Shown here in pieces: positions 31,465 through 50,386 of a stretch of 64,000 bases of DNA (the stretch's first letter is position 1; each line of letters starts with the position of its first letter). Source of the stretch: Vanrija pseudolonga (Eukaryota; Basidiomycota; Tremellomycetes; Trichosporonales; Trichosporonaceae); the NCBI RefSeq assembly GCF_020906515.1, contig NC_085854.1, positions 620,001 to 684,000 of the forward strand, read 5' to 3'. The notes below the pieces were generated by a model, which saw only the letters and a program-made list of their open reading frames with translations, was not told the origin of the DNA and ran no database searches. Position numbers and translations under genes: made by a program.

Positions 31465-31877
31465 GTGCGCTCAGTTGTACATATTATGGCCCTAAACCCA
31501 ATCTTGTTGTAGTTACTGTTTATTGCATAGATGTGTTATGGCAGCGGCTTGGCTGCTCGTGTTCTGCGGAGCAAGTTGTCCCAGCACCACATTGTTTACA
31601 CTCGGTGGAAGAATACAAGAATTTACATAGGGATTACTGTACTTGCGCTGATCCACCTCGGCCGCTCGTGCACACAATCGGCCAGCGAGGCAAAAATGTG
31701 CCACTTACAACGGCACACCCCGCCACACCCCCACTCCAGGACCCAAGTCCAACAGCTCCAGGATCAGCCCAAGTCGCGAGGAGCTCGCACCGCACCGCAT
31801 CCTCAGAAATCTACATAAACCCCAAATCCACGCGGAACGAACTCATCTCAACACCACATCCAACCCAACCGACCAAC
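31465..31877. other. Intergenic leader with duplicated promoter sequence
   Basis: About 410 bp. Contains copy 2 of the upstream repeat (31665-31820) and an A/C-rich leader before the ATG at 31878. No other coding sequence recognised. Confidence 0.5.
31665..31820 (+). repeat. Upstream repeat, copy 2 (leader of gene at 31878)
   Basis: Partner of the repeat at 30038-30190. Both copies lie just upstream of a gene starting MAP. The two downstream proteins do not align beyond the first residues, so the promoter homology is better preserved than the coding part. Confidence 0.65.
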
Positions 31878-32480: not shown

Positions 32481-32813
32481 AGTCGCGCCGTCGCCGCCTC
32501 TAGTGCGCTCGCACCACCTCAAGCTTGTGGAATCTGCCTCACGGCTTGTAGAATACCTTCATGAATACGTTTACTGGCATTGAGTTGGGGTGCTTGTTCT
32601 CGACGCGACTGATTTCCCTTGGAATCGCCTCGCCCGCATCTGATAATGCACCCTCGCAACATCTAAACCCTCGTTACTCTCCCTCCATCTCCTTGCTTCT
32701 ATGCAAGGTTGGCCCTATGCAACCGTTCGAAGGATCAGAGAGCACACCTCCACATCCTCCACCTCTGCAGGCTGGCAGACCCCAGGGCCGCCATGCGGCA
32801 CATTGAATGCCAG
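32481..32813. other. Convergent intergenic region
   Basis: About 330 bp between two genes ending toward each other. I see no gene; it probably holds both 3' untranslated regions. Confidence 0.5.
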
Positions 32814-33785
32814 CTAGCTGCGTTCGTTGCACGGGAAGTGCACGCCCGTCTTCAGGTGTGTCACTTCGCCGTCGCCATCCTTGCATTCGTAAATCCACTC
32901 GACCACACCACCGGGGTAGTCTTCGATAATGTTGTACGGGGCCTCGGGGCAGAAGTAGACGTTGTCGATCTCAATGGGTTGTTCCCCACAGATGCGGAAG
33001 ACAAGGGTGCCCATATGCCGTGCGACGATGGTGATGGGCGTCTTTTGGAATGCGACCCCTCTGAGGTCGGATAGGGTGAAGACCACCGGCAGGGCAAGGC
33101 GTTTCATGTTGGCGAGCAGGTGCTGGGACTTGACGACCGAGTATGACTCGCCCGCGTAGGCGGCAGCGAAGACATGGAATGTTGCCGAGCCATTGGCTGG
33201 CCCCGACGGTTTGCCGGCACCCGTGTTCACCGCGAGCCTCTCGTGCCCGTCCCCAACGAGGCGGTACGGGACTGGCGGTTCAGGCGCCCAATCCCTTGGC
33301 TGGACGTACCCCATGTCCTCGAGCGCGCGCATCATGATGCGCTCGGGACAGTTCGAAGGCCAGTGACAGTGGCAAGCGCAGACCCAGCACGCCTCCCAGC
33401 ATCCGCAGTGGGGGTTGCCATTGACAGCGACCTTGTGCTCCGGGTTGAAGGCCGCGATTTCTTTCTCCGTCGGCACCCCGTCGCGCATATACCGCGCCAC
33501 GAGTTTGACCAGCAGCGTGAACTGGTCGAAAGACTGCTCGTGGCCCGCCTCCCACGTCTGGAGGACCTCGTCCCCGAAGTCTGGCGGCACGGTGCAGATG
33601 TACGCCCAGACGTGTCCCTCGGGGTCGTCCTCCAGAGAGACGCAGTTCCACTCGTTGCGCGCGACCTCCCACGCTTCAAAGTGGTCTTCGAATTCGTCGG
33701 GGGTGCAGCCATCCTCGAGCGGCCAGGACAGCCGGTCATGGAGGGATGGCTGGTGGTAGCGGTGTCGTCGTCTCTTCCTGACCAT
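32814..33785 (-). CDS. Retroelement-derived gene 2: Gag, zinc knuckle and Pol beta-barrel fragment
   Basis: Open frame of 323 codons from MVRKRRRHRYHQPS. Order of parts: basic start; Gag-like helical domain (TPDEFEDHFEAWEVARNEW, DQFTLLVKLVARYMRDGVP); a Cys/His-rich knuckle with the CX2CX4HX4C spacing of retroelement Gag zinc fingers at residues about 137-150 (CWVCACHCHWPSNC); then the Pol beta-barrel/protease-like segment (SYSVVKSQHLLANMKRLALPVVF, GTLVFRICGEQPIEIDNVYFCPE). The module order is the same as in Ty1/copia Gag to protease. No polymerase or LTR seen. This copy shows the zinc knuckle most clearly and is the best anchor for the family assignment. Likely an old fragment kept under constraint, or a domesticated gene; the basis for constraint is the intact frame only. 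Confidence 0.6.
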   Translation of the reverse strand: MVRKRRRHRYHQPSLHDRLSWPLEDGCTPDEFEDHFEAWEVARNEWNCVSLEDDPEGHVWAYICTVPPDFGDEVLQTWEAGHEQSFDQFTLLVKLVARYMRDGVPTEKEIAAFNPEHKVAVNGNPHCGCWEACWVCACHCHWPSNCPERIMMRALEDMGYVQPRDWAPEPPVPYRLVGDGHERLAVNTGAGKPSGPANGSATFHVFAAAYAGESYSVVKSQHLLANMKRLALPVVFTLSDLRGVAFQKTPITIVARHMGTLVFRICGEQPIEIDNVYFCPEAPYNIIEDYPGGVVEWIYECKDGDGEVTHLKTGVHFPCNERS

Positions 33786-34247
33786 GGAAGCAAGTGTGAG
33801 CTGGGTATGAAGACGGGGAATGAGTCACATAAAAGTCGAGACTTTGGGTCATTGACCTGCGGAGGTCAGTGCTGGTGCACGGTGACCAGTGTGTCGCGCG
33901 TGGCGTGGTTCTGGCTTCGCGGTGGCGCGGAGCTTGGCTTCTCGCCCTCAGGGACGCGATAAGATGCATGGACATTCTCATTGTTTGGCGTTACATGTCA
34001 TTTCACTATGTAGCATGCCGCTGATACAGGAGGGCCAGGGCGAAAGTGGGTGCCGAGCGTTGGAGAAGCTGTGAGGGCTCGAGGGGCAGACGCTATTGTA
34101 TGCAGACTTGAAGGGCCGTTTGAACAGTCGATGTTACTAGGGTGGGTGGAAACCATTTTGGGCGAATGTGGAGAATGAGATGTGATGTGGATACGAAGCC
34201 GGCCGAGCGAGTTGACCAAGAGGCAGTCATGGAGGAACAGACGCGAG
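33786..34247. other. Intergenic region
   Basis: About 460 bp, upstream of the gene at 33785 and downstream of the gene ending at 34248. Nothing recognised. Confidence 0.5.
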
Positions 34248-34967
34248 TCACCACGGTCCATTGCCAAAGTCGGGCAACGGGTGTTTCTTGGCCAGTTCCG
34301 CCCAATACGGCTCACGGAGGAAGGCGTCAACGTCCAGAGTCGTGTGGTCGGCACTTGGCGACGCCAGTGCGAGCGCTGGCGGCGACTGGATGGCTGACAA
34401 CGACCTGCGCGAGTTGGATGCTTCAGCGGTCGGCGCAGGTGAGGGAGCCCCAGCTTGCCGCCCAACGTATCCCATGTTCTCCAGATCACGGATGTAGGCT
34501 ATCTCGGGGCATCTGTCGACGGAATGGTGGATGCTCGCGCAGAACTTGCATGTCGGGACGAACTTGCATGTCGGGACGCCAGTGGCCTTGAGCCGCTTCT
34601 TCCCGTTCATGGCGATGGGTGATGCGGGGTCGAACGCGGCCACGTCGGCCGGGGAGGGCACCCCGTTCTGCATGTACGCCGCGGTTTTCTTCACCACGAG
34701 CGTCAGGGTTGCCCATGCCCAAGTGCACTGGCTGTCTTGGAGGCTCATCCACAGGGTACGCAGCGAGCTCTCGAAGGCGGGCGGCACGGTTCGCAGGAAG
34801 GCTGCAACATGCTCGGCACCTTGTGGTGACGGGTAGACCATGTTGTCGATGTCGTACATCGCCTTCTGTGTTGCCTCTGATACTCGAAAGTGCGCAAGGA
34901 GCTGGGCGGCAGTGAACGGGTGGTTGAGTTTACGGGCCAGAATCGCGGCGTAGTCAAGGGGTGCCAT
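34248..34967 (-). CDS. Retroelement-derived gene 3: Gag plus CCHC zinc knuckle
   Basis: Open frame of 239 codons from MAPLDYAAILARKL. It carries the Gag-like helical region (PFTAAQLLAHFRVSEATQK, EHVAAFLRTVPPAFESSL, WAWATLTLVVKKTAAYMQNGVPS) and a classical CX2CX4HX4C knuckle (CKFCASIHHSVDRC, residues about 137-150), followed by RDLENMGYVG, a phrase also found in gene 2. The C-terminal Pol-like part seen in its relatives is absent; the last 60 residues are Ser/Pro-rich. A short duplication at 34542-34577 doubles an 18-nt unit inside the knuckle region. Reading: Gag-derived fragment of a Ty1/copia-type element, now a separate gene. An upstream TATAAG lies at 35042-35047. Confidence 0.6.
   Translation of the reverse strand: MAPLDYAAILARKLNHPFTAAQLLAHFRVSEATQKAMYDIDNMVYPSPQGAEHVAAFLRTVPPAFESSLRTLWMSLQDSQCTWAWATLTLVVKKTAAYMQNGVPSPADVAAFDPASPIAMNGKKRLKATGVPTCKFVPTCKFCASIHHSVDRCPEIAYIRDLENMGYVGRQAGAPSPAPTAEASNSRRSLSAIQSPPALALASPSADHTTLDVDAFLREPYWAELAKKHPLPDFGNGPW
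34542..34577 (-). repeat. Two copies of an 18-bp unit inside gene 3
   Basis: The 18-nt unit beginning GAACTTGCATGTC is present twice in tandem, duplicating six codons next to the zinc knuckle. It shows a recent small expansion. Confidence 0.7.
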
Positions 34968-35041
34968 TGTGCGGTGGCGTTGTAGGGTGACAAGGTTGGC
35001 GGTAGAGAAAGTTGGGGTGTCTGATTCTCTCAAGCTCTATA

Positions 35042-35047
35042 CTTATA
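35042..35047 (-). promoter_or_regulatory. TATA-like box of gene 3
   Basis: Reads TATAAG on the minus strand, about 75 nt upstream of the ATG at 34967. Confidence 0.4.
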
Positions 35048-35257
35048 TGCATCAGAGGATCTGGGGTCTGTGCGGGATGCGCGAGGCTATGGCATGGCGG
35101 AAGGGAGAGGAAGGGCCAGTCCAGTCAGCCACAGGAACGACGCACGCACAGGACGTGCCAACGCACTCGCCTCGCCTCTTACACACGGCGTGGCGGTCCT
35201 TTTGCCTCTTCTTCTCTTCGCCAATCCCTCTTTTCTCAACATTGCACCGTTCACAAA

Positions 35258-35833
35258 ATGCGCCGTCCAAGACGTCTTCGGCAGCCCTCAACGATCACCC
35301 ACCACTCCTTGCCCGACCATCCCATGCCCCCTGCTCAGCCCTGTCGCCAGACAGCCGATCCCCGCCACGCTGCTCGCCGCCCTCCTTCGCATGGATTCTG
35401 CGAGCCGTTCGGCGCCCCCGCCCATGTTCTTCGTCAAGCCCCGACCACTCAATGGTACCAGCCTCCAGCGCACCACCTCCCGCTTCCGCCGCCCCAGCAC
35501 CCCGCGTATCACCGCCTCACCGTGCAGCCTGTGCTTCCGCCTTCCCCGCCGCACTCGGCTGGGCGTCGCACAACGCCCATCCCGCCGGCCTTCCTCGCAC
35601 CTCCGATCCCCGTCTGCGTCGTCAATAACCCCACTATCCTCCTCAACCGTCAGCGACTCGCCCTCCCAGTGGTTCTCGCCGCCAATGGCGGCATGGCCGT
35701 CGCCCGTGAATACGGTACCCTTGAACTCAAGCCCGGGCCCGACCAGCCGCCGATGATGTGGGTTATCGCGCTCTGCGCGCCTGAAGCAACGAAGGATATC
35801 CTCGGAGGAGACATTGGATTCAGGGTGCATTAG
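35258..35833 (+). CDS. Retroelement-derived gene 4: Pro-rich linker plus short Pol beta-barrel-like part
   Basis: Open frame of 191 codons from MRRPRRLRQPSTITHH. The first 120 residues are Pro/His/Ala-rich without a Gag-like domain. The C-terminal part has VCVVNNPTILLNRQRLALPVVLA, which aligns with the conserved strand of the other family members (VVKDRxLLxNxKRIxLPVV), then REYGTLELKPGPD. It therefore belongs to the same Ty1/copia-derived set and keeps only the Pol-like piece. The start is the first ATG after an A-rich leader (TTCACAAAATG), a good start context in fungi. Function unknown. Confidence 0.45.
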   Translation: MRRPRRLRQPSTITHHSLPDHPMPPAQPCRQTADPRHAARRPPSHGFCEPFGAPAHVLRQAPTTQWYQPPAHHLPLPPPQHPAYHRLTVQPVLPPSPPHSAGRRTTPIPPAFLAPPIPVCVVNNPTILLNRQRLALPVVLAANGGMAVAREYGTLELKPGPDQPPMMWVIALCAPEATKDILGGDIGFRVH

Positions 35834-36100
35834 GAGGAGTCTTGGGACCTGCTGCCAATCCCCCTTCCGCTGCTCGAAGGTTGGGTGCGGGTTGCCATGC
35901 AAGGGGTTGTCATGGGGACTGGGGCAATTGCCCACCACATCTGGCGTTGAGGCGAGGCCTGTGGCTGTGAAGTACATAGGTGGTGCGCTGTATTTGTAGT
36001 ACTTTTTAAAGAATTCAATGCATGTCATTCATGAGAGAAAAGACAAAGTGACCACCCAGGTTCATTAGACCCCTTGCAGCCCTTACAAGACTTGACAACG

Positions 36101-37183
36101 CTAGGCGTGAAGTACACACGCGGGTAGGGTTGCGAGCTGAAGGGGAAGGCTCGCCCCGGTTGGTGCATGAGTGAGCACGCCAGCCTCGATATTCCACAGG
36201 TCAGAGAGCAGGACATCTACCCCGAGGACGTTGTGTGCGCATTCGGGGGCGTATAAGACGTTGTCGATCTGAATCGGCTCCGCTCCCTGAGGACGGAGGA
36301 CGAGCGTCCCCATGGCCCGAGCGACGATGTACGGCTCCGCGGGCTGCATGAAGGGCGATACCGAGACCACTGGAAGGGGGATGCGCTTGAGGTTGACGAG
36401 GAGGTGGCGGTCCTTTACGACTGTGGTGGGGCCACAAATCACGAAACGCGCCGGCGGGACTGGGGGCAAGTCGCCGGTCTGAATGTTCGTGAGGTGGGCG
36501 CTGCTCTTTGATGACCCAGCCTCATTTGCGCTGCTCTTTGATGACCCAGCCCCATTAGCGCTGCTCTTTGATGACCCAGCCTCATTAGAGCCGTCTACAG
36601 CCGTCTTGGATGCAGCCGTCTTGGACGATGGCCCGCGCTTCTTCTCCTCATAAGCCTCCTCGGCTGCAACCTCCTCTGGGAAAGGCTCAAGTGGCCATTC
36701 AGGAGGAGACGCGCGCTCGTGTGCATACCCCAGGCGACAGAGGTCACGGGTAAACTCCTTCTCGGGGCACCTGGCCCCATGGACGCCCGCGCAGAAAAAG
36801 CATCCCTTAGGCGGGCGCAGGTGGCCATTCAGAGCCCTGTTCTTGTCCTTGATAGGCGCGTCGATCTCACCCTGCGAGGGGACGCCGTCCCGCATGTACG
36901 CGCCGACCGAGTAGACAATGTTGTGGAACGCGTAAAACGACGTCGCGGGGTGCGCCGACGCCCAGCGCCGGATGAGGACCAGGTCAAGGTCGCGTTCGCC
37001 AATCGTCTCGAGGTAGGCCGAGACGTGCGTCCATGGGTCGTCCTCCAGCGAGCCGCCGTTGGCATGTATGGCGGCCGCCTCCCACGCGTCGAAGTGGGCG
37101 TCGAGGTCGTCGGCGGTGAAGCCGTTCGGGAGGAGCATGGGGTGCGTTGTGGGTGGGGTGGTGGTCGGGTCGGTGGTTGTCAT
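36101..37183 (-). CDS. Retroelement-derived gene 5: Gag, Cys/His patch and Pol beta-barrel fragment
   Basis: Open frame of 360 codons from MTTTDPTTTPPTTHP. It carries the Gag-like region (NGFTADDLDAHFDAWEA, SFYAFHNIVYSVGAYMRDGVPS), a shorter Cys/His patch (CFFCAGVHGARC), a linker of three Ser/Lys repeats, and the Pol beta-barrel-like end (TTVVKDRHLLVNLKRIPLPVV, GTLVLRPQGAEPIQIDNVLY). A TATAAA box sits 45 nt upstream (37228-37233). The member is closest to gene 2 in its C-terminal half. The three linker repeats are encoded by a 30-bp tandem (see repeat entry), a sign of ongoing slippage. No polymerase, integrase or LTR nearby. Confidence 0.6.
   Translation of the reverse strand: MTTTDPTTTPPTTHPMLLPNGFTADDLDAHFDAWEAAAIHANGGSLEDDPWTHVSAYLETIGERDLDLVLIRRWASAHPATSFYAFHNIVYSVGAYMRDGVPSQGEIDAPIKDKNRALNGHLRPPKGCFFCAGVHGARCPEKEFTRDLCRLGYAHERASPPEWPLEPFPEEVAAEEAYEEKKRGPSSKTAASKTAVDGSNEAGSSKSSANGAGSSKSSANEAGSSKSSAHLTNIQTGDLPPVPPARFVICGPTTVVKDRHLLVNLKRIPLPVVSVSPFMQPAEPYIVARAMGTLVLRPQGAEPIQIDNVLYAPECAHNVLGVDVLLSDLWNIEAGVLTHAPTGASLPLQLATLPACVLHA
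36501..36590 (-). repeat. Three tandem copies of a 30-bp unit in gene 5
   Basis: The unit CTGCTCTTTGATGACCCAGC plus ten further bases is repeated three times at 30-bp period. It encodes three copies of a ten-residue Gly/Ser/Lys block with few differences, so the expansion is recent and frame-preserving. Confidence 0.8.
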
Positions 37184-37227
37184 TTGGACTTGTGTGGTTG
37201 AAGCAACGAGAGGTTTCGGTCGATGCC

Positions 37228-37233
37228 TTTATA
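37228..37233 (-). promoter_or_regulatory. TATA box of gene 5
   Basis: TATAAA on the minus strand, 45 nt upstream of the ATG at 37183. Confidence 0.5.
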
Positions 37234-37470
37234 GTGGAGACGGGGGACGAGGGCTGACGCGGTAGGAGCCGTCGTGCGTTGTGCTCGAGGTGAGGTGCTT
37301 CTTCCTCGAGTGCACATGAGGGGATGGGCCAGCCACGGTGCGAACTGAACAAGGAGGGCAACCTATGCGCTGGAGCTTGCTTCACTTCTGTCACAGACCA
37401 GCACCTGTTGTCAGCCCATGTCCCCAGTTACATGGAGCATACATGCATTCTGCTGACTCGAGACAAGCTT

Positions 37471-39741
37471 CTACGCCGCGCGGACCAGCTGCCCGTCCAC
37501 CCACTCATACTTGCCAACGCTGAGCATGTACGCCGTGTCTTTCCTAAGCTTCGATGGCCGGTGGACTCCCGGCCCGTGGTGGGGCAAGTGGAACGAGATA
37601 AGGCCGTTGTCGTTGCTGGCGAAGCGCAGCCCCGTATGATGGAACACGATGGCGTCCTTCTCAAATCGCAAGCCGTCAGGCGATATCGCATTACGACCGA
37701 GGATATTGAACTCGCCATCAGGGCAGAAGTAGACGTTGGGGATGCTGATGTCCATCGGTCCGCCCGGGCGACGGAAGAGTAGCGTGCCGACGTGCCGTGC
37801 ACAGAGCATGTGCTCCGGGTCGGGGGTGAGGTACGCGTGCGATAGCAGCACTGGAATGGCGAGCCGTTTGACGTTGATGAGCAGCCCTCGGTCCTTGACG
37901 ACAGAGTGCGTGCCACCGGTGGTGATGAAGAATGTTGTCGAGCCAGACGGACGCGTGCCGGTGCCTGTGTGGACTTGCTGAGACGGTATATTGTGCGCAG
38001 TTGAGTGTTCTTGCGCAGGCATGGAAGCTTGTCGTGTTATCGTGGGCTCGGCAGGAGGGCTCGAGATCCCCAGGCCGGCCATGGAGGCAGCAAGCGAACC
38101 TTGGGCCGCCGCGTCGCGAGGAGGTGAAGGTGGCTTGCGTTGGCGTTGCGACTCGCCGTCGCGCGCCTGCCGCTGGGGCCTGGAGCTGGCAGTGTGTGAG
38201 GCCGTGGGCTGCTCGGTCGTCGTCACAATCGCAATCCCTGTATAGGCAACAGTTGGACTCGCGGCGGCTTGGGTATCTTGAGTAGCCGAGGCCTTCTTCT
38301 GCAGGCACCTCAACTCAGATTTGGCGATCCTCGCCATCCCCGGGAAGGTCGCGCTGCCACTCTTCTCCCACTCGCGACGGAAGCGGCGCCGAAGGTCGAC
38401 CGGCAGCGGAAAGAGGAACTCGTCGATGAGGGGAAGGATGATATGTCGATTTCTGCGCGACCACTTCTCGAACTGGCGTGCTCTTTCGTCCTGTGGCTCA
38501 TCGTCGTCGTAATCCGGGGAGCAAGCATGACCCGCAAGGTGGGAGGCGAGTCCCTCAGCAATGTAGGGGGCCTTGACCTTGGGAAACATCCACTTGCGAC
38601 CCACAGACACTGGGGGAGCGTACTCGACACCTGCGTCCTCCGCCTCCTCAAGGTTCTCTATCTCCTCATTGGCGATGTCGACTATCTGGTTGAATGTACG
38701 CCCTCCGATGTGGTCCCACTCAGTCTGGAACCGGAAGGCCATCTCTCCTGGCAGGGTGTCGAGGAACAACTCCACGGCGCGCTCGTGCTCCTTGACAGTC
38801 GCACGCGTACCCCAGTCCTCCTCCAGTCCGTTCTCGAACACGAAGTCATGGACATGGTCAGAGAGCGAGATGAGGGTGACGGGTTCGTGGAGGGATTGAG
38901 TGTACGCGCCAAGGCGAGGCTGCTCGACAGGTTCTGGGGCTGTCGCTGGACGTTGTGAAGGACCTGTGGTGTTCTGGGACGGGAGAGGTCGCGGCAGCGC
39001 CATGCTCTCAGGAGGTAGGGCCGACCCTCTGAGGCGCTCCACCTCTCGCTCGACGATGTCGACCATGTCTGCCCACTTCCCCGACCCAGTCGCATCCCAA
39101 GTCTGGCGGAACCGCCTTCGAAGGTTCAAGGGGAGGGCACAGAGGAAGTTGTCGACCGCCAAAGACTCTTCGTCGCTGTACCGGTGTCCAGAGGCATAGA
39201 CGCCGAACTGCTCGCTGAAATACAGGTACTGGTCCAGGAGCCTTCGCCACGTTACCGGTTGCGGGAGTTTGGGCATGGCCATGCCGTTGAAATCCTCGTC
39301 AGGGAACGGCCTAAACCTTCTACCGGTTCTGCTCGCCTCTTCACGCTCCACAATCTCCTCGTTGACAATGTCGATCATGTCGGTAAACATGCGGCCCCCA
39401 GCTTGGTCCCAGCGCGTTTGGAAACGAAAGGCCATGCCCATTGGCAAAGTGTCGACGAACAGCTCGACCGCCCGTTCGTGCTCCTTGATAGTTGCTCGCC
39501 GAGCCCAGTCCCCGTCTAGCCCGTTCATGAACACGAAGTCATTGGCGTGGTCGGAGAGCGATTCCAAAGTGACTGGATCGAAGAGCTCCTCGGTGTATGC
39601 ACCGAGGCGTCTCTTGTCGGCAGGTACTTGGGATGTAGCCTTCGGGTGTGATGGGCCTGCACGGGTTCGGCCAGCTTGAGGTGGGCGACCGGGCTTGCCC
39701 CGTGGTGGTCCGCTGTTACCATTGCTGCGCGATCCAGACAT
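37471..39741 (-). CDS. Retroelement-derived gene 6: fourfold Gag-like domain plus Pol beta-barrel fragment
   Basis: Open frame of 756 codons. A basic Gly/Pro start is followed by four related helical domains: A about residues 46-137 (LGAYTEELFDPVTLESLSDH... ERAVELFVDTLPMGMAFRFQ), B about 160-240 (QPVTWRRLLDQYLYF... LCALPLNLRRRFRQTWD), C about 277-370 (LGAYTQSLHEPVTLISLSDH, very like A), D about 391-490 (FLFPLPVDLRRRFRREW, like B). The A-B pair thus appears duplicated. The C-terminal 150 residues hold the Pol beta-barrel-like part (THSVVKDRGLLINVKRLAIPVLL, GTLLFRRPGGPMDISIPNVYF). It is the largest family member and the only one with more than one Gag-like unit. It is related to gene 7 in its C-terminal half (VHTGTG-R followed by WG/SG). 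Function unknown; Gag-like duplications would favour assembly of multimers, but that is speculation. Confidence 0.6.
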   Translation of the reverse strand: MSGSRSNGNSGPPRGKPGRPPQAGRTRAGPSHPKATSQVPADKRRLGAYTEELFDPVTLESLSDHANDFVFMNGLDGDWARRATIKEHERAVELFVDTLPMGMAFRFQTRWDQAGGRMFTDMIDIVNEEIVEREEASRTGRRFRPFPDEDFNGMAMPKLPQPVTWRRLLDQYLYFSEQFGVYASGHRYSDEESLAVDNFLCALPLNLRRRFRQTWDATGSGKWADMVDIVEREVERLRGSALPPESMALPRPLPSQNTTGPSQRPATAPEPVEQPRLGAYTQSLHEPVTLISLSDHVHDFVFENGLEEDWGTRATVKEHERAVELFLDTLPGEMAFRFQTEWDHIGGRTFNQIVDIANEEIENLEEAEDAGVEYAPPVSVGRKWMFPKVKAPYIAEGLASHLAGHACSPDYDDDEPQDERARQFEKWSRRNRHIILPLIDEFLFPLPVDLRRRFRREWEKSGSATFPGMARIAKSELRCLQKKASATQDTQAAASPTVAYTGIAIVTTTEQPTASHTASSRPQRQARDGESQRQRKPPSPPRDAAAQGSLAASMAGLGISSPPAEPTITRQASMPAQEHSTAHNIPSQQVHTGTGTRPSGSTTFFITTGGTHSVVKDRGLLINVKRLAIPVLLSHAYLTPDPEHMLCARHVGTLLFRRPGGPMDISIPNVYFCPDGEFNILGRNAISPDGLRFEKDAIVFHHTGLRFASNDNGLISFHLPHHGPGVHRPSKLRKDTAYMLSVGKYEWVDGQLVRAA

Positions 39742-40070
39742 GTCGCCGCAATGATCTCGGTGCTGCGAGTATGATTAAGCAAGATGTGATATGTGGTGGA
39801 CAATGAGGGAGAGCTCAGAGCTCGGAGTTGATGTGAAAGAGGACAAAAGAGAGCTGTTCGGCCGCCGACGTCATTTTCGATCCGACGTGCTTTTCGATTC
39901 CGTCGGCGGCAATTGAACCGTTTAGCCGTTATCACAGGTCAGTGAGCTAGGTGAGGTGGTCAGACGTAGGCTCCTCAGAACAGGACAACGTGTTGATGCA
40001 TACATACATGCCCCTCGGGCCTCCAGCAATCAAACCATGTAACCACGTTCACACAGCCGTGTGCGCTTTC
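39742..40070. other. Intergenic region
   Basis: About 330 bp between two minus-strand genes. Contains no recognisable coding sequence. Confidence 0.5.
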
Positions 40071-41261
40071 TTAGTCCACTTCGAAGATCTCGTCGATCTC
40101 GTTCAGCTCGGGCGTCGGCGAGAGAGCCCTCGAATCCTCCTCGGCAATCGGGTCGACCTTGCACACATCGAGGCAGTAGCTCACACCGTCCTCCACCTCG
40201 ACGGGGTGACACATCCCTGGGCCATAGTGGGGGAGTATGAAGCTGCGGTAGGCGTCGTCGATGAGGAAGCGCGTCTTGCTCGGCCCGTGGGTGAGGAAAT
40301 GGGCGTCGGGGTCGTAGCTAAACTTGCCACGCGTCATCGCATTGGTGCCGAGGAGATTGTTGCTCGCCTTTGGGCACAGGTAGACCTCGGGAATGCTGAT
40401 GTTGATGCCACTTGAACGGCGGAGCACGAGTAACCCGACGTGAGTAGCCTTGATTAATCTTGCCTCGGGATGGTCCTCCGCGCCAGGTGGTGCGAACAGC
40501 GCTGGAGGGTCGAGCCGCGTCATGTTGATGAGGAGACCACCATTGTTTACGATCGAATGTGTCCCGTACTGGGAGACGAAGAAGGTCGACGACCCCCAAG
40601 GGCGAATGCCTGTGCCGGTGTGGACCGGCCCAGTTTCGAGCATCGCTTCGCGTGGTGCGTCGGTCGGAGGCACTCCACTGTGATCGGGATTACCAGGCCA
40701 AGCCAAGCGCTCCAGCTTGAGCTGTCTCTGGCGCTTCGGCCCTCTGGGCCTGTGGTTGGCCGATCTCGCGCCAGTCGAACCCTCGGAGATGGTGGACTGG
40801 GCATTGCTAGGGGGATGCGCCCCGGCCCCGAGGTCGGCAGGTGCGTACCCCTCGGCCTCCTTGTCCAGAAAACGCGCTTCGTTGAGTCCAATGGCAACCA
40901 TGTCCGGCCATGTTTGCTTGGGGCCGTACTCCCACTCCTTGTACAGGCGCTGGCCGAGAGGGTTGGGCAGCGATCTAGTGAAGGCCTTGGCCATCCACCC
41001 GTCCCAGCTGCCGTTGCATCCATGCCAGTCTTTGAGATTGGTCGCGTAGACGAGGAATCTGTTGATGTGTTCGCGCAGCGTTTCAGCGGTGATTGGGTGC
41101 TCGAGCTTGACCCTGGTCTGCTGGAGGAAGTACTCGTCTGAGGTGTGACGTCAGCACTACGCGGTGCAGTGGTGTGTGCCTCGCGCTACTCACGCCCCCC
41201 CCGAGGCAGTCTCGTTCGACCGCCTGTTGAAATTCTTCCGCTTCTTGTATGTTATCGTCAT
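40071..41261 (-). CDS. Retroelement-derived gene 7: Gag-like and Pol beta-barrel fragment, possible 5' exon
   Basis: The main open part, from about 41145 down to 40071, starts after a CCTCAG acceptor (EYFLQQTRVKLEHPITAETLREHI..., then SWDGWMAKAFTRSLPNPLGQRLYKEWEYG). The Gag-like domain is followed by a Pro/Arg linker and the Pol beta-barrel-like part (THSIVNNGGLLINMTRLDPPALF, VGLLVLRRSSGINISIPEVY). A likely short first exon with ATG at 41261 lies upstream across one intron with a GTGAGT donor; its exact border is uncertain. The Pol-like part is closest to gene 6. No polymerase or LTR found. Like the other members this is read as an old Ty1/copia fragment or a gene derived from one. Confidence 0.5.
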
Positions 41262-41535: not shown

Positions 41536-41553
41536 GGGGGGGGGGGGGGGGGG
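41536..41553 (+). repeat. Homopolymer run of 18 G
   Basis: Uninterrupted G18 in the window. It may form a G-quadruplex and is a place where length could be assembled wrongly. Confidence 0.8.
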
Positions 41554-42046: not shown

Positions 42047-42959
42047 ATGAGCATCCCCTACCCCAACTTCACGATTACCATCCTCCCCAGGCCCAATGGA
42101 CCTCCGCACATCGTCGGCGTGTTGGACGCGTTGACTCGCCCAACACTTGACACCCAGTACAAGGTAAGCCACTTTGCCCTCCCTCCCTAGCTGACGGCAG
42201 AACCCGGCAACGTACCCTGTCGAGCTGGCGCGTACCCGGGCCACACTGGACAGGGACATGGGCGTGATCGACAACGAGATTGTTGCCTATGAAAAGTGGC
42301 GGACCGAGTTGGACGACGAAGTGCGACAGCTGGCACGGCGCGACATGCACCTCATCGGGTGGAGGCGCCAGCTGGGTGCTCACATCGACATCCTGGTCAA
42401 CAAGCTAGGCTACACTACCGGGACCCGCCATGCCCCCGTTCCTACTACCCCCCACGTCGCATCATCGGCATACCCTGACCAGGAGAGCCGCCTCGCCGAC
42501 GAGGGTGCTCTGGCCGAGTACCTCGACGAACTGAACGCAGCCGCCGATGAGTCCGAGGTCATTTGCCGCCGCATGGAAGTGGTCGGCGGCGAGACGGAGG
42601 GACTCAGGGGCCAGATCGGGGCTCTCCTGCTCAAGTCCCACAACTTGGAGGCCGCGAAAGAGAAGTACGAGTCCGAATACACGCGCTTCCACGCCGTCCG
42701 AGACGAGCACCGCTGCAAGGCATGGACGGCCATTCGCGAGCTCTGCAGATCCGGGGTGCGCACCACCACCGACCCCGCCACCATGCTCCGCACCGCGCTC
42801 TACTTTGACATACTAGGGAGCCGGTCGGCCCGCGACGCGCTGCGTACCCTACTCAGTGGGCTAGAGGGCACGCAGGTCCGGGCTTCCTTGGGGGAGATTC
42901 TGCCTGACCTCGCCATCAACGACGAGCAGTTACGCTTTGTGTTGTCGTTCGTGGACTGA
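42047..42959 (+). CDS. Tandem paralogue P1, unknown family
   Basis: Two exons, 42047-42163 and 42201-42959, give 291 residues in phase. Exon 1 encodes a short beta-like start (NFTITILPRPNG) followed by PHIVGVLDAL, a phrase shared in form (PxIxGxL) with the neighbours. Exon 2 begins with a long charged helical, coiled-coil-like region (RATLDRDMGVIDNEIVAYEKW, DESEVICRRMEVVGGET, NLEAAKEKYESEYTRF) and ends with the family module (DPATMLRTALYFDILGSRSARDALRTLLSGLEG...DEQLRFVLSFVD). It is the longest member of the array. No known domain recognised. Starts after a TATA box at 41982. Position at the 5' end of the array and the intact intron make it the best reference for the family. Confidence 0.7.
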
Positions 42960-43342
42960 GTGTGATGAGGGGAGGAGCAAGTATTGTGCATTCAGAATAG
43001 CATCTATGAATCAAAATTGTGTGTCCATACAAGAGGAAGTGGTCGACTGACAATGTGGTGAGGCCCGCACGAGTCGCCTGCCGTCGTTGATCAGTCCGTC
43101 ATCCTTTCATCTCCTATCCCTTCCACGTTTGTCCCTTCCACCCCACCAACACCAGGGCGTAGACTTGACATCACCCTCACAGAGAGCTTCTGCTAACACG
43201 ACTGCATGGCGTGTTCATAGGCCCCCAACGCTCGCGGATCAATCTTGTTTCCACTCCTCACTCAACCCACGCACCCACACCCAACTCTACACGCACACAA
43301 ACCACAACCAAACCCACCTAATCCACCCAAACAAACCTCAAC
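42960..43342. other. Intergenic region P1-P2
   Basis: About 380 bp, ending in a long A/C-rich leader (repeated ACCCA/ACAC motifs) before the ATG of P2. No gene seen. Confidence 0.5.
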
Positions 43343-44256
43343 ATGCCCCCAACCCCAAGCTTCACCACACCAACCTTCACGATCGTCCTCGAGCCGACCG
43401 GGGTGGAGTTGAACGGGGTGGAGCTGCCGCGCATCACCGGCATCCTACGGCGCGAAGGGGTGGCCACGACGGCGACAGAGCCACCGGTAGGTGGCCCCTG
43501 GTGCGACGGGAAAACTAACCATGCCCCAGAACCCAAACACGCACCCGTGGTCCCTCCTGGAAGCAGGAAGGACCATGGTGGCGAGCGCGAAGGACCTCAG
43601 CGAAAAGGTAGCGCAGGCAGCTGCGGAGCACGGCTTCCTTTCTACGCTCAAGACCATGGAGGAGGAGAAGCTCCCTCCACTCATGGAGAAATCTGGACGC
43701 CTGGAGGCTCAGATCGTTCAACTCGAGGGATACGTCCACAGCCGGGCACAGCAGCCGCCCGACGCGTTCCCCGCCCAACTACCTGCCGTTGAACCGCCTC
43801 ATTGTCCTCCGAATGCAACGCGACAACCTGCAAACCGACTCCAGCAGGGTAGAGTACCGACTGGCCCGTTTCAGGAGCTACGTGGACGAAGCTGTGGCCA
43901 AGTTGGACGCCGTCAGGCGAGAGTGGGACAACCTCGAGGCCGACTCCAACGCCAACCAAGACGAGTGGAAACGTTTCATGGCAGTCCCACCCCGCAGCCG
44001 CTCCCAAGCCCGCCGCGTCATTGACGAGCTGTGCGCCCGCGATCCGGTGCAAACATTCACTGATCCCGTCGCACTACTGCGTATCGCCGTCTACTTTGAC
44101 CTCCTGGGTAGCAAGGCTGCACGCCACACGCTGCTCTTGCTCCTCGACTCATTGGGAGCATCGACTGAACGCGTGGTCCGACAGCTGGAGGCCCGATATC
44201 CCGACTTCCCCTTCACGGATGAGCAGTATCAACTCATTTTCCCGTTTCATAACTGA
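43343..44256 (+). CDS. Tandem paralogue P2, unknown family, apparent frame shift
   Basis: Exon 1, 43343-43486, encodes FTIVLEPTGVELNG and LPRITGIL, matching the N-terminal pattern of P1. After a 43-nt intron exon 2 starts at 43530 with a helical region (LLEAGRTMVASAKDLSEKVAQ). Between about 43740 and 43790 the reading frame moves by one nucleotide; downstream it continues as PNYLPLNRLIVLRMQRDN and ends with the family module (DPVALLRIAVYFDLLGSKAARHTLLLLLDSLGA...DEQYQLIFPF). No GT-AG intron of suitable length bridges the shift, so it is either a genuine frame disruption, an assembly error, or a non-standard splice. Both halves show good coding bias, so a recent event or an error is more likely than a long-dead pseudogene. 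Confidence 0.55.
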
Positions 44257-44451
44257 ATGCGTGGCTGTGATGTACTGTATTTACGATGCACATGACACAC
44301 TGTGTGCTCTGCATGTGCTCACCCTCCTCGCTTTGATTCTAGGTATTTCCCACTGTCTTCCCCGCCTCTACCGTTTGTTTGATTCAGTACTCCCAGCCCA
44401 CATTCGCCACTCCGCTTGCTTCCTCCTTATTCTTCTCACCAAAGCCCCATC

Positions 44452-45037
44452 ATGCTCAGTCCCGCAAGCAGTCCCTGCTCGCTCTACATCATCACCGTCC
44501 CAGACAGTGTCCGCCCAGAAGATTACAACTCGGCCGCCGATTCTCGGAGCTCTGGAGAAGGTCGAGGCATTCGACGAGTACACCGCCTTCAAGTTACGCT
44601 TTTCACTTCTTCTGGTGCTCACAGACACTCAGACATATGACAAGGAAAGGGCTGCCTGGAAAGATAGGCATGTCCGCTTGGGGTGTGCGATTTCGGCCGA
44701 CGACAAGACGGCAGTGCTCGAGGTGGAGCGACAATTAGACCAATACCGATCACAGTGCCGCCCTCTCTCTCAAGCCTTCAAGATGGTCCAGGCGAACCTT
44801 CATGGAGATACCTTGTTGCCCGGCAGCAAGTACTTCTACGTTGAAGACCCCGTCCTCCTCCTAAGCCTTGCGCTAAGTTTCGACACTCTCGGCAGCCAAG
44901 CGGGAACCGACGCCTTGCACACCCTCCTCAAGGCACTCGGTCCGAAGGGCGTGCGCGAAGCGCTCAATTCTCTCGAAAACTCGTCCCTCTGCAAGCCTAC
45001 CCGCGATCAGCTCCTCCTCATTATCAAGCACCTTTGA
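44452..45037 (+). CDS. Tandem paralogue P3, unknown family, N-terminus uncertain
   Basis: The C-terminal part is clear: a helical region (DKERAAWKDRHVRLGCAISAD, VERQLDQYRSQCRPLSQAF) followed by the family module (DPVLLLSLALSFDTLGSQAGTDALHTLLKALGP...RDQLLLIIKHL), ending at 45037. The N-terminus from the ATG at 44452 (SLYIITVPDSVRPEDYNS) resembles the start of the other members, but the matching PPILGALEKVEAFDEYTAF phrase lies in a different reading frame, so one nucleotide of disruption or a misjudged start is needed. A short in-frame alternative begins further upstream. An intron at the conserved place (after about 40 codons) may be absent here. Spacing to P2 is only about 200 bp. Confidence 0.55.
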
Positions 45038-45168
45038 TATGTAGATTGTAATTGGCAGCTGCTGTCCTATTTTATTCCCCCTGTCCTTTCTACCTCGTGT
45101 CACCCCAGCATGTATTCCATGACCCAGTCAACCTCTCTCCTCACTCACCACATCTTCCAGCGAAACCA

Positions 45169-45784
45169 ATGACCCCAGTGCCAAAGCACCCAACGATCAC
45201 CTTCCCGATGCTCACCATCTCGAAGGTGCCCCCAAACCACCCGAGTCTGGTGGCAGGCACCGTCGTCGGCGTCCTCGAGCCATGGGTCGAAGCGACGCTG
45301 CACAACACGCCAGTGGTACGTCTTCCTCCCCCTGCTCCTTCCCTGACCATAGACCTTCCTCGAGCACACGTCCCTCCTAGCGGCCATCAAGGCGCGCCTA
45401 GAGGCCATCCGGGCCAACCTCGACGCCATCGCCGTCGGCTTCTCGGCCGCCCTAGAGCAGATCAAGGCCGACACGGAGGCGTACAATGCCGAAGTGGCGC
45501 GCTTTAATGCCCTCTCGCCTGCAAACACGGCACTGGTCGACGCGACCCAGGGCGTGACGAGCAACCTCACACACACCGCAAACTACCTCACCGACCCTGT
45601 CGTCCTCCTCTCCCTTGCCCTCGCGTTCGACAATATGGGCTCCCGCGCCGCACGCCAGCAGCTCCAGGCGCTGGTGGAGATGATGGGCCCGAGGGCGCTG
45701 CATGAGGCTGTGAAGGAGCTCGAGATGAACACTCTTGTTCAGGCGTCGGCCGAGCAGCTGGAGATGATGTGTCGTTACTTCTAG
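45169..45784 (+). CDS. Tandem paralogue P4, unknown family
   Basis: Exons 45169-45315 and 45353-45784, spliced to 192 residues in phase. Exon 1 has the N-terminal pattern (TITFPMLTISKVPPN and VVGVLEPWV). Exon 2 encodes 144 codons: first a strongly amphipathic, coiled-coil-like helix (LLAAIKARLEAIRANLDAIA, ALEQIKADTEAYNAEVARF), then the family module (DPVVLLSLALAFDNMGSRAARQQLQALVEMMGP...EQLEMMCRYF). Exon 2 is exactly as long as exon 2 of P5, as expected of sister copies. The family is unknown to me. The intron is 37 nt. Confidence 0.72.
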
Positions 45785-45877
45785 GTGGAGAAATGTAGAG
45801 AAATGTAGAATGGGCGCCAGCTTCACTCTCCTTCATTCTTGGCCACCTACCTCTGCTTTGCTTCTACACTACTCACC

Positions 45878-46474
45878 ATGCCGCTAACGATATCAACTCT
45901 GATCATCCTCACCACCGCCCATCACGACCCCGACAGCCCCGAGCCCGCGCCCATTATGGGGATGCTGAAACGAGCCGTGCCCACCGCGTACACCGAACAC
46001 AGGGTAGGTGTTGATCTTCCTCCGCTCCACCTAACCACCCAGGCGGCAACAGCACACAAGGCCGACATGGCGGCCCGCAACGCCCGCCTCAAGCGTCTCG
46101 AGACGGAGCTGCACACCACTCCCGCTCCTTCACGTGCGATGCTCGTGACGTACGAAGCCGAACTCAAGGACTACAATCTGCGCAAGGAACCCTTCGACGC
46201 CTCGCGCCCGTCCAACCCCGTCTTCCTCGCCGCGCTGGCGAGGTGCGCGCACGACGTGGCCGCGCAAGCAGTGTACATCGCCGACCCGGTACTCCTCCTC
46301 AGCCTAGCACTCAGCTTCGACCACCTCGGTAGCCGCGCCGCGCGGGACGCACTGCTCGCCCTCCTCCGCGCCATGGGACCGCTGCGAGCGAATGCCACGC
46401 TGGGCAAGCTAAGCAAGACGATACTGGTCAAGCCCTCGGTCGCGCAGCTGAGCTTCATGATGCCGTACCTGTAG
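45878..46474 (+). CDS. Tandem paralogue P5, unknown family
   Basis: Exons 45878-46003 and 46043-46474, 185 residues. Exon 1 has ISTLIILTTAHHDPD and PIMGMLKRAV, again the PxIxGxL phrase. Exon 2 carries a Lys/Glu-rich helix (ATAHKADMAARNARLKRLE) and the family module (DPVLLLSLALSFDHLGSRAARDALLALLRAMGP...VAQLSFMMPYL). The module is near to P4 and P3, sharing DPV-LLSLAL-FD-LGS-A. Only 93 bp separate it from P4. No transmembrane segment or export signal is certain, although the exon 1 start is hydrophobic. Confidence 0.72.
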   Translation: MPLTISTLIILTTAHHDPDSPEPAPIMGMLKRAVPTAYTEHRVGVDLPPLHLTTQAATAHKADMAARNARLKRLETELHTTPAPSRAMLVTYEAELKDYNLRKEPFDASRPSNPVFLAALARCAHDVAAQAVYIADPVLLLSLALSFDHLGSRAARDALLALLRAMGPLRANATLGKLSKTILVKPSVAQLSFMMPYL

Positions 46475-46679
46475 TGAGCGTGTGACATGCATACGAGCAC
46501 TCGCCTCTCGAACAATAGTGGCCCTGGGGCGCGTGTCTCGAAGGTAGACCCCTACCTTCGCCCCGATAAAACACTCAACCAGCACAACGAGGCCAGCGGC
46601 TCTCGCCCCACATCCAGCGCAGAGGCTTATATTCTCCACCATGGGAACCCCCCAACCGTACTAATCGACACGCGCCGCA

Positions 46680-47164
46680 ATGCCCCCACCCAACAAGCTC
46701 CGCCCGATCCACCCGGCCGTCGACAACACCAGCGAGCTAAGATGCCTCCTCTCCACCGTTGTCGCGTCGCAGGTACGTCTCTCCGCAGGCGCGGCACGCT
46801 GACGCCATGCACGTAGGCCAACATCACGGCCTTGGCGGAGAAGCTCGCGGCGCTGGAGGAATCGCACGATGCGCTGAAGACAGAACATGAGGCGCTGAAG
46901 GCAGACGTCGCGGCGCTCAAGGCGGCCGGCAACGCCCGTGTGGCCGAGTCTCAGCGCTTCTTCGTCACGCTTGACGAGGTCGCCATCGTGCTCAGCCACC
47001 GCCTGTTCCGCGCCTCTAGGGAGGACGATAACGGCGCAGAGCTGTGGAACTTGTGTCTACGCCTCCAGCCTGCCAGGCTGCGTGCCGTGCTCGAGGCGCT
47101 TGCCAAGGCTGAGCTGGTGCAGCCGACTCCTGACCAGCGGGTGATGCTTGGGCTGTTCATGTAG
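46680..47164 (+). CDS. Tandem paralogue P6, diverged short form
   Basis: Exons 46680-46772 and 46817-47164, 146 residues. The N-terminal exon has lost the PxIxGxL phrase (start PPPNKLRPIHPAVDNTSEL). Exon 2 begins with a textbook coiled coil (ALAEKLAALEESHDALKTE, ALKADVAALKAAGNARVAE) and ends with a version of the module in which the first half is changed (DEVAIVLSHRLFRASREDDNG) but the second half is kept (LRAVLEALAKAELVQPTPDQ...LGLFM). It therefore links the P1-P5 type to P7. Gene at the position of the conserved intron. Confidence 0.6.
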
Positions 47165-47611
47165 TGCTGTGCTGGCAGGACGGTGGGTGCTGGGTGTTGG
47201 TTTCCGTATCTGTAGCATGCAGGACATCGCTACACAGTCAAAGTTGGGTGGTGAAAGCCCTGCTGGGTGGCCCGAAGCCATTGTCACGGCACGGAGTGGT
47301 AGAGTGCGCGGCCTTCCCACGGCATCCTTATTGTCCTTGAGTGCGGCCGTGTCGCTGCCCATGCAAGTCACACTCAACAGCAACGAACTGGTTTCAGATG
47401 TGTCAGACGTTATTGTTAACGGTGGGTCGGACGCTCTTCGGTGACGCCACAGCGCCGTACGGTCAGCCGAATAGATCGTCGCAAGGCATGCCGTGACCAT
47501 GTCCCCATCGTCTCGAGGCCCACATGATGCCAGCCCACTCGGCTCCATTGTTCCACCTTCAGCTTTAAGCCCTGCTTTGGCGTCGTCTCTCCAAACTCCC
47601 CACCCTTCAAG

Positions 47612-48006
47612 ATGCCCAGGCTCCCCAGCGACCTCGTCTCGACCGTGCGTCTCGTTTGGTCCTTTTGTTACTCGCTAATCAGTAGAGCGACGTCAAACCT
47701 CGCGCACCGGTGCGTTCCAGCGCCAAGCACGGCACCGACACGCTGAAGGCGGAGGTCAGCACCACCAAGCCGGGCGACTCAGGCGACGGGGTCCTCCATC
47801 TCATGGGACTCGACGACGTGACGGTCGTCCTGAGCCACCACCTCGCCCTCGCCACCGTCGGCACCGAACACGACGTCGCCAACCTGTGCGGACTGTGCGT
47901 CAGCCTTGGACCGAACGGCCTACGCGAGGCTGTCACTGCGCTTGCTGCGACCGAGCTCGTCCAGCCGACGCCCGCGCAGATGACCGCCCTCGAGGTGTTC
48001 ATGTAG
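47612..48006 (+). CDS. Tandem paralogue P7, shortest form
   Basis: Exons 47612-47644 and 47686-48006, 117 residues. The coiled-coil region is reduced to a short charged stretch. The module reads DDVTVVLSHHLALATVGTEHD, then LRECAVTAL-like helix (LREAVTALAATELVQPTPAQ) and ends LEVFM. It is sister to P6 by the LSHHL/LSHRL and ELVQPTP blocks. Start is inferred: the ATG at 47612 is followed by eleven codons and a GTGCGT donor; the acceptor is CAGTAG. It closes the array; downstream there is a 1-kb stretch without genes. Confidence 0.55.
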
Positions 48007-49050
48007 AGGGCGTCGCCACTCCTGGTAGACTGGTATGAGCATGCAGATGAGTTATGTGAGGTGCCCGTGGACGTGAGTCGTTGGCTGTGAGTGAGGATCT
48101 TGTGTCGTCAGTTGCTGAACCTAAGAAGTTGGCTGCTGCTCCACTCACCGCTGCCGTTCCTCACGCCGCCCGCCGCCCCGGCTCCACCTCCCTCCTTGCA
48201 GCGGCGTCGTCCACAATCATGGCGATGATGACAAAGGATGATCAACGCTTCTCAAAAGCGCACGTCGCCCCTCGCCCCCTCGCTCCTCCCCACCACGTCG
48301 GCCCAATTGTCCCGAAGGCAGGCCAGCCGCGGCAGCCGAGGTCGCCGACGCGGAGAGCCGATGGCTGGCTGGCTGGAACCGACGCCCCGTGCCTTCCGCA
48401 GGCGCCGCCTCAGCCGCCGCCGCCTCTCAGCCAGGTATCACTCTCCCCATGCCAAGGATGCGTCGCCGCGGGCCGCAGTCGTCGGCGATGACGACCGAAG
48501 TGATCGTGTGAGATGCAATGTAAGCAGTGAAGTTGCTGTGCATAAGAATAGTCGAGCAAGGTCTCGACCCTCACTGCATGCCAAATGCCAAGATATGGCA
48601 CTGCGGCATATGATGTCATTGGCCGATTGCCATGTCGGGCCGCCGGCCGCCGCCGAGAATCGCGATGGCCGCAGGTGGTCATCAACAAGGAGGCAAGCAG
48701 GACGGCTCCAAGACTTGAGATGCAGCCGCCCGCTCCAACTCGGCGCCAAGCCCCAGCCACGCCTCGGCCACGAAGCTGCCCATGTCCCCCGCGGCCGCCC
48801 CCCCTCCTCGCCCTCGGCCCTTCGGCCCCCTGCAGCCAGCCCACGCCACTCGCTTGCCACCTGACGCCATGGCTCCTGCGTTTAGGTCAAACTGCCCTCG
48901 TGCCGGCGCCGGCGGGTTGCGCTCTGGCGTCTTCTGCGCCAGCCGCCTCGAGCGGCACAGCTGACAATAAAAAGGCGAGCGGCTTGCGTCACATTTTTGC
49001 CCCACTTGTCCTCCCCACATCGCACACCAATTTATCACAACCACAACAGA
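48007..49050. other. Gene-poor stretch after the array
   Basis: About 1 kb. Open frames on both strands are Arg/Pro/Ala-rich and unconvincing. The end of it, with AATAAAAAG about 85 nt before the next ATG and an A/C-rich leader, looks like the promoter of the UBA gene. Confidence 0.5.
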
Positions 49051-50386
49051 ATGAGTGAGTAGGACGGCGACCTGGCGGAGGTCGGAGGACCACGGGAGCT
49101 GGTTGTGCAGTGCCCACAAAGCATCCACCCCGCGGATGCGATGGCGAGGGCCGACGTCACCCACAAACGTGGTCGCGAACGGCGCCGAAGCGCGATAAGC
49201 CCCCTCCCAGCGCCTCCGAGCGCCCGCATCCATCCCCGTTCCCAGCTGACGATTCGCAGCCAAGATCCAGCTCACTGCCGACCAGCTCGCCGCCGTCGGC
49301 CCCCTCGCGCACGAGGGTGGCGTCGCCCCAACTATCACCCTCACCAGCGACCAGCTCGCTACCGTCGGCCCTTCGGCGACGGAAGCCGCGGCCGAGAAGG
49401 CCAAGGCCGGCGGCCCCTCCGTCACCTTGACGGCTGACCAGCTCGCTGGGGCCGAGTACGACCCCGCTGCTGCCTCTGCCAACCGCTCGCGCCGCGGCTC
49501 GTTCAACCCCCTTTCGCGCAAGTCGTCGCGCGAGCCCACCCCCGCCCCTGCTGCCGCTGCTACTGGCCCCAAGACCTTGACTGCCGACCAGCTTGCTGGT
49601 GCCGAGTTTGACTACGAGGCCGCGACTGAGCGCTCGCGCCGCGGCTCGCAGAAGGGCCTGTCCCTCTCGCGCACGGCGTCGCGCGAGCCTGCTGCTGCCA
49701 CCAGCGCCCTCGCGGGCAAGACGCGCACGGTCACCCTCACCCCCGCCCAGGTCGCTGCCGCCAACGAGCACGGTCACGCTACCCTCACTGCCGACCAGCT
49801 GGCCGCTGTTGGCACCATGACCCCTGCCCCTGGCTCGCGCCGCCAGTCGTTCGCCGCCGTCTCGCTCTCGCGCAAGTCGTCGCGTGACCCCGCCCAGGCC
49901 GCCCGTGGCCCCATCACTGCCGAGCAGCTCGCCAACGCCGGCTCGTTCGAGGACAACCTCCAGAGCCTGATTGACATGGGCTTCCCCGCCCGTGCTGCCA
50001 AGATCCAGCTCAAGCGCAGCGACAACAACCCCACCGACGCCGCCGAGCACCTCGTTCACGTCGCCCACCGCCCCGACACTGGTGCCGGTGGTGACCCTTG
50101 GGGACACCCCGACTGCCCCGTTTGCGTTCGCCACACCCAGCAGGCGAACGCTGCCGAGAACCTCCACGACTACAAGCTTGAGCACGGCAAGGGTGTCGGA
50201 AACGCCATCCACTCGGGTGCCCACGCTGTCGGCGATGCCCTCACCAACGCCGTCCGCAAGCTCGGTATCGGCAAGGGTGACAAGGAGGAGTCCTCGAGCG
50301 ACGCCCGCCGCGGTTCGATCGGCGCCATGCTCCGCCGTCCTTCGATCAAGAAGGGCCTTGAGAAGTACGACAAGGAGATTGCATGA
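49051..50386 (+). CDS. UBA-domain protein with seven TADQLA-type repeats
   Basis: A 4-nt first exon (ATG plus one base, 49051-49054) is followed by a 205-nt intron and exon 2 at 49260-50386, giving 376 residues in phase. The N-terminal 225 residues hold seven copies of a short motif (LTADQLAAVG, LTSDQLATVG, LTADQLAGAE twice, LTPAQVAAAN, LTADQLAAVG, ITAEQLANAG) spaced by Ser/Arg-rich linkers with repeated RRGS and RKSSR phrases, likely phosphosites. Residues about 230-272 form a UBA domain (DNLQSLIDMGFPARAAKIQLK...TDAAEHLVH), which binds ubiquitin. A short Cys/His pair (CPVCVRH) follows, then a Lys-rich end. The tiny exon is a Tremellomycete feature. It probably acts as a ubiquitin-binding adaptor; the repeats are unknown to me. 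Confidence 0.75.

Follow-up and report, generated by a model that had tools for sequence, protein, structure and literature searches.

An orphan protein family in two tandem arrays of the Vanrija pseudolonga genome

Introduction

Fungi commonly carry tandem orphan families. One tandem, lineage-specific family is formed by the wtf genes of fission yeast, which encode membrane proteins with gene-drive activity. In Neurospora, the part of the published account consulted here describes lineage-specific genes that cluster with HET-domain genes, most of them beside telomeres (PMC10684091). The subject of this work is a row of seven genes, P1-P7, at positions 42047-48006 of a window of 64,000 nucleotides (nt) from the 24.87 Mb, nine-contig genome of the yeast Vanrija pseudolonga, the window being positions 620001-684000 of contig NC_085854.1 (C6 below). 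An earlier reading made from the letters of this window (the sequence-only reading) had described these genes as a tandem array of paralogues of an unrecognised family. The family is bigger, older and less clean than that reading supposed. We propose, tentatively, that P1-P7 are seven of the 13 genes of an orphan family held in two arrays, whose members likely pair by a coiled coil and would dock partners by a C-terminal helical module.

Results

Two arrays of one family

The seven genes lie head to tail on the plus strand, and their coordinates, strand and count are as first given; the spacing between them is 383, 195, 131, 93, 205 and 447 bases. A whole-genome search with P4 found P5 with an expectation (E) value of 1.9e-18, P3 with 3.8e-10, P2 with 3.4e-6 and P1 with 3.3e-4, and a search with P6 found P7 (E 8.2e-10). 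The first sign of a second array was a weak match to P6 at C6:2,025,835 (E 0.0042). Six minus-strand genes, B1-B6, were recognised there at C6:2,025,814-2,031,788, on the same contig and 1.36 Mb from P1-P7, with an unrelated reading frame between B4 and B5, and thus the family is not limited to the array in the window. Both arrays are away from the contig ends. Searches with B1, B6, B3, B4 and B5 retrieve members of array 2, and that with B1 additionally retrieves P6 (E 0.0021), P7 (0.27) and P4 (0.52). Altogether 11 genome searches, with a limit of E 0.001 for the P4 query and E 10 for the ten others, gave 56 matches. Sixteen of these were the query's own gene or its counterpart (P3 for the query P0012, a relative of P3), 37 of the remaining 40 fell within the two arrays and three lay elsewhere (E 1.12, 1.67 and 3.5).

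Comparison of profiles with hhalign gave a probability of 92.5 for P6/P7 against P1-P5 and of 93.0 for P6/P7 against array 2. With settings of our own the values were 92.9 and 96.1, and 60.6 for P1-P5 against array 2, while 60 column-shuffled controls per pair reached at most 1.0, 1.0 and 3.1 in the same order. The profile scores of the first two pairs were 46.8 and 54.0 against shuffled maxima of 17.4 and 15.8. Pairwise z scores, computed against 200 shuffles, tie all 13 genes into one net. Within array 1 they were 29.7 for P1-P2, 14.9 for P2-P4, 29.1 for P3-P5, 35.4 for P4-P5, 20.5 for P6-P7 and 12.0 for P3-P7; within array 2 they were 40.0 for B2-B3, 17.8 for B2-B4, 11.0 for B2-B6 and 17.4 for B5-B6; and across the arrays they were 10.6 for P6-B1, 10.4 for P7-B1 and 9.1 for P7-B6. 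The in-frame-open piece of P3 and the deposited P2 protein were used in these pairwise comparisons. Judged by such scores, P6 and P7 bridge the arrays and make the kinship visible.

The proposed origin by tandem duplication fits the arrangement of array 1, where the similarity between neighbours is matched or exceeded by 70 of the 5040 possible gene orders; for array 2, 90 of 720 orders were as good, which is not significant. The smooth gradation from P1 to P7 that had been suggested gives way to three groups, P1/P2, P3/P4/P5 and P6/P7.

A short intron near the start of the gene, before the coil, is present in 12 of the 13 genes and is in phase 0 in 11 of the 12. The claim that this intron is shared, after 11-49 codons, stands for six genes of array 1 (37-44 nt, GT-AG, all phase 0) but not for P3, where there is no clean intron. 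B1-B6 have one early intron each, of 31-44 nt and phase 0 in five; that of B4 is GC-AG and phase 1. Splice sites were picked by eye, and the choice was confirmed by the deposited proteins for the five models P1, P4, P5, B1 (LOC62_06G008575) and B5 (LOC62_06G008578), which are identical to them. For P6 and P7 alternative introns, several in the case of P7, likewise leave the frame open. Where the intron is present in P1-P5, exon 1 encodes the N-terminal part with a PxIxGxL-like phrase, and exon 2 the coil and the module.

The guanine plus cytosine (GC) content at codon position 3 of the exon-2 frames was 0.68-0.88 in the 13 genes; three genes taken for reference (Nup192, an enoyl-CoA hydratase gene and a GNAT gene) had 0.83-0.86. 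The lowest values were those of P3 (0.68), B4 (0.70) and P2 (0.72-0.74), the remaining genes of array 1 having 0.80-0.85. The high-low-high coding pattern was not found in five intergenic stretches of array 1.

P1-P7 have in common a C-terminal module of about 65 residues, in which four columns (L10, L28, L31 and Q59) are invariant in all seven. The motifs first described for it proved looser. From the core FDxLGSxxARxxL, FDxLGS is exact in P1, P2, P3 and P5, but P4 has FDNMGS and P6 and P7 lack it, while the terminal LVxPTxxQL is exact in none of the seven. The N-terminal PxIxGxL, attributed to P1-P5, is exact in P1, P2 and P3 but degenerate in P4 and P5. Alignments of the 13 genes also show a short hydrophobic stretch just before the module.

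Relatives in Vanrija

Fourteen proteins were listed by three protein searches, which covered 5.8 billion sequences and scored about 8,000 candidates each. Seven of the 14 are encoded on the V. pseudolonga contig, among them P0014, a frame of 84 residues that belongs to P3 in the window. The other seven are Q8F55_006356 of V. albida and six proteins on further contigs, and the relatives that carry a species name are all from Vanrija. The best-match identity of a relative to its own counterpart was 61% for P1, 70% for P3, 83% and 70% for P4, 72% for P5 and 93% for B6; P0009, which we read as a short, partly garbled relative of B6, was left out of this comparison. For the relatives of P1, P3, P4 and P5 the longest contig given is in each case 42,344 bases, so that they probably share one contig. 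The family had been taken to be expanding now. Given these one-to-one relatives of P1, P3, P4, P5 and B6, from V. albida or other contigs, the arrays look instead to be older than these Vanrija lineages and not a recent expansion. The family may extend beyond the genus, since a word-based protein search can miss distant relatives.

Known domains and folds

The family is, as first supposed, an unrecognised one. A match to a known domain, named beforehand as evidence against this, was looked for and none was found. Pfam gave no credible match for the 16 members scanned (best E shown 0.0032). Four coil families, HALZ, Spc24, DUF7491 and APG6_N, matched one or two of the 16 members each, at E 0.0032-0.08 and below their cut-offs (for DUF7491 on P1, 15.4 bits where 30 are required); what they share with the family is a long amphipathic helix, and such a coil match is little sign of kinship. 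NCBIfam gave no score above cut-off for six proteins. The best, B5 against an ISNCY transposase model, had an E value of 1.2e-4, but its 21.3 bits fall far short of the cut-off of 583; it was taken as chance, as was a GrpE match of B5 (E 0.0072). Two profile searches of the PDB sequences gave no credible match either. The best in the first was a designed three-helix bundle at E 0.051, the rest being at 0.67 and above, and the best in the second was a designed three-helix bundle at E 0.0029, over the coil, the rest being at 0.16 and above; other matches were mostly to helical or coiled-coil chains. A Foldseek search of PDB folds with the P4 model gave 15 matches with a best E of 4.3, which we take as nothing. 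Searches of an open-licence library, judged by titles and the opening lines of abstracts, listed no paper that was recognised as being on this family, and the word 'tandem' does not occur in the portion of PMC12820176 that was available. Hydropathy of 19 sequences, with a highest 19-residue mean of 1.81 and every maximum starting at residue 19 or later, gave no indication of a membrane span or signal peptide.

Predicted structures

Models were made for P4 from 16 sequences (mean predicted local distance difference test, pLDDT, 75.9; predicted template modelling score, pTM, 0.40) and for P5 from 10 sequences (mean pLDDT 73.4, pTM 0.54). The P4 model has a helix at 49-102 and module helices at 131-143, 147-174 and 182-189, the long helix and the module being in blocks of pLDDT 90-94. 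The P5 model has helices at 39-67 and 73-95 and module helices at 124-136, 140-166 and 175-184, in blocks of pLDDT 79-89. The coiled-coil-like helix of the sequence-only reading thus has its match in the helical coils of both models, and the predicted architecture is a long helix (P4) or a helical hairpin (P5) followed by a three-helix module. The N-terminal beta-like start appears in the P5 model, where the part encoded by exon 1 forms a beta-hairpin (strands 6-12 and 26-32) at low to middling confidence, but not in the P4 model. The hydrophobic stretch that precedes the module in the alignments may be the same strand as that modelled in P5 at 119-121.

Frame breaks in P2 and P3

The two halves of P2 are in different frames, with the shift at about 43.75-43.81 kb. 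In the deposited model the shift is spanned by a second intron of 82 nt at 43766-43847, which is among 19 possible GT-AG introns here that leave the reading frame open. At the N-terminal break of P3 the relative's protein P0012, whose own N-terminus is open, aligns in two frames. At window 44594-44626, the family intron position, P3 and P0012 both continue in frame, and P3 lacks a GT where the in-frame donor would be expected; a former intron may here have turned coding. The breaks in P2 and P3 may be either true frame loss or assembly errors.

Table 1. Gene models of array 1, in window coordinates.
Gene	Position	Strand	Exon 1	Early intron	Module	Product
P1	42047..42959	+	117 nt (39 codons)	42164-42200, 37 nt	about 42756-42956	291 amino acids (aa); model identical to deposited LOC62_06G008042
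P2	43343..44256	+	144 nt (48 codons)	43487-43529, 43 nt	about 44050-44253	deposited as LOC62_06G008043, 262 aa, two introns
P3	44452..45037	+		no clean intron	about 44834-45034	N-terminal frame break
P4	45169..45784	+	147 nt (49 codons)	45316-45352, 37 nt	about 45581-45781	192 aa; model identical to deposited LOC62_06G008045
P5	45878..46474	+	126 nt (42 codons)	46004-46042, 39 nt, in frame	about 46271-46471	185 aa; model identical to deposited LOC62_06G008046
P6	46680..47164	+	93 nt (31 codons)	46773-46816, 44 nt	about 46958-47161, divergent, no FDxLGS	146 aa in chosen model; coil and divergent module
P7	47612..48006	+	33 nt (11 codons)	47645-47685, 41 nt	about 47794-48003, divergent	117 aa in chosen model

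Neighbouring genes

Upstream of array 1, at window 30304-40994, is a cluster of seven other paralogues (five minus-strand and two plus-strand genes), for which the label Gag/Pol_BBD-like is our own reading. One member has a weak Pol_BBD match (E 0.064), another has weak zinc-knuckle matches, and four of the seven (at 30304, 32814, 37471 and 40071) have no Pfam match. With one member as query, nine matches were obtained (E up to 0.01); eight fall within the cluster and the ninth, at C6:601 kb, lies outside the window. Between this cluster and P1, at 41536-41553, a run of 18 G is a likely site of sequencing or assembly slippage. Downstream, the gene at about 49050-50386 has an apparent tiny first exon, a repeated short phrase that we read as LTADQLA-like, and a UBA-like match that, at 24.5 bits (E 2.6e-5), falls short of the cut-off of 27. 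Beside array 2, at C6 about 2,032,299-2,034,256, are two adjacent genes that are alike by eye, one with a weak BTB match (E 0.0027, 18.3 bits, cut-off 20.5) and the other without a Pfam match; the pair is perhaps another local expansion.

Discussion

The proposal that we tentatively prefer runs as follows. The arrays would have arisen by repeated tandem duplication in the time before these Vanrija lineages diverged. The proteins, for which hydropathy alone argues against a membrane span, would be soluble and intracellular. The coil would pair with itself, and in P1-P5 the N-terminal hairpin may lie against the short beta segment just before the module. The shared C-terminal helical module would dock partner proteins, with different paralogues presenting different docking surfaces. 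In this strain, P2 and P3 may be on the way to losing their function.

Several points weigh against this proposal. The genome search scored 3-8 candidates per query, so distant members could escape it. The profiles of P1-P5 and array 2, when compared directly, gave a weak probability of 30.5, and the shuffled controls for the profile comparisons fail to reproduce helix periodicity. No direct link joins P1 or P2 to P6 or P7 (z of 1.3 or less), and B4 reaches no gene of array 1 (z of 2.0 or less) and is linked through B2 and B3. The models rest on 16 (P4) and 10 (P5) sequences, with pTM values of 0.40 and 0.54. In P4 there are no N-terminal strands and residues 10-39 have pLDDT below 50, while in P5 the hairpin strands are in blocks of pLDDT 51-74, which is low to middling, and the short strand 119-121 is in blocks of pLDDT 55-87. 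Finally, the frames of P2 and P3 are broken, and these two genes and B4 rank lowest in GC at codon position 3 (0.68-0.74).

The condition of P2 and P3 makes drift and partial decay the main alternative: the genes would form a birth-and-death family of weak function today or none, these two being pseudogenes already. We consider this unlikely, though it deserves serious weight. Their frame breaks, the absence of a clean intron from P3, the GC at codon position 3 of P2 (0.72-0.74) and P3 (0.68) against 0.80-0.85 elsewhere in array 1, and the absence of the core motif from P6 and P7 all speak for drift. A family adrift would sit less easily with frames that are open, given the chosen introns, in five of seven genes of array 1 and in all six of array 2, or with relatives that retain 61-93% identity with their own counterparts; moreover the N-terminus is open in the relative of P3, and the breaks may be assembly errors.

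A bolder version of the docking proposal would make this a Vanrija-only family with a new small fold (beta-hairpin, coil and helical module), whose 13 paralogues pair selectively so that the arrays form a combinatorial docking code, possibly for self-recognition; we regard it as improbable. Somewhat more improbable still is a conflict or recognition locus, at which specific pairing of paralogues marks self from non-self or favours its own transmission. Small coiled-coil proteins that have diverged strongly, are encoded in two tandem arrays and have named relatives from one genus only would suit such a locus, as would the local gene cluster that adjoins the array in the window, but the one-to-one conservation is the opposite of fast turnover, neither array is near a contig end and the Pfam scan found no recognition domain among the members. 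Least probable is a domesticated retroelement Gag family akin to the cluster just upstream (30-41 kb), for although that cluster is close, one of its members weakly matches Pol_BBD (14 bits at E 0.064, against a cut-off of 27) and the module is all-helical, this origin is disfavoured by the lack of cross-hits, since the 11 family searches (limit E 10 in ten, 0.001 in one) never reach the cluster and the search from the cluster (E up to 0.01, 9 matches) never reaches the array, and the shared intron is unlike fresh retrocopies.

The 13 loci define a protein family that is absent from the libraries searched. As a small and bounded set, they suit the question of how a genus-limited family arises and spreads, and also that of how an N-terminal part is gained or lost via a first exon.

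The likeness of the Vanrija family to the lineage-specific genes of Neurospora, as far as these are described in the part of the source consulted (PMC10684091), is that of genus-limited genes in clusters. Those genes are mostly subtelomeric and among HET-domain genes, whereas the Vanrija arrays are internal to their contig and their members show no such domain in the Pfam scan. The wtf proteins are likewise set apart from the Vanrija family, for which hydropathy indicates no membrane span, by being membrane proteins with gene drive, while the two have in common clustered paralogues limited to one genus. The family is thus undescribed in the libraries searched, but its kind, a genus-limited tandem family, is a familiar one.

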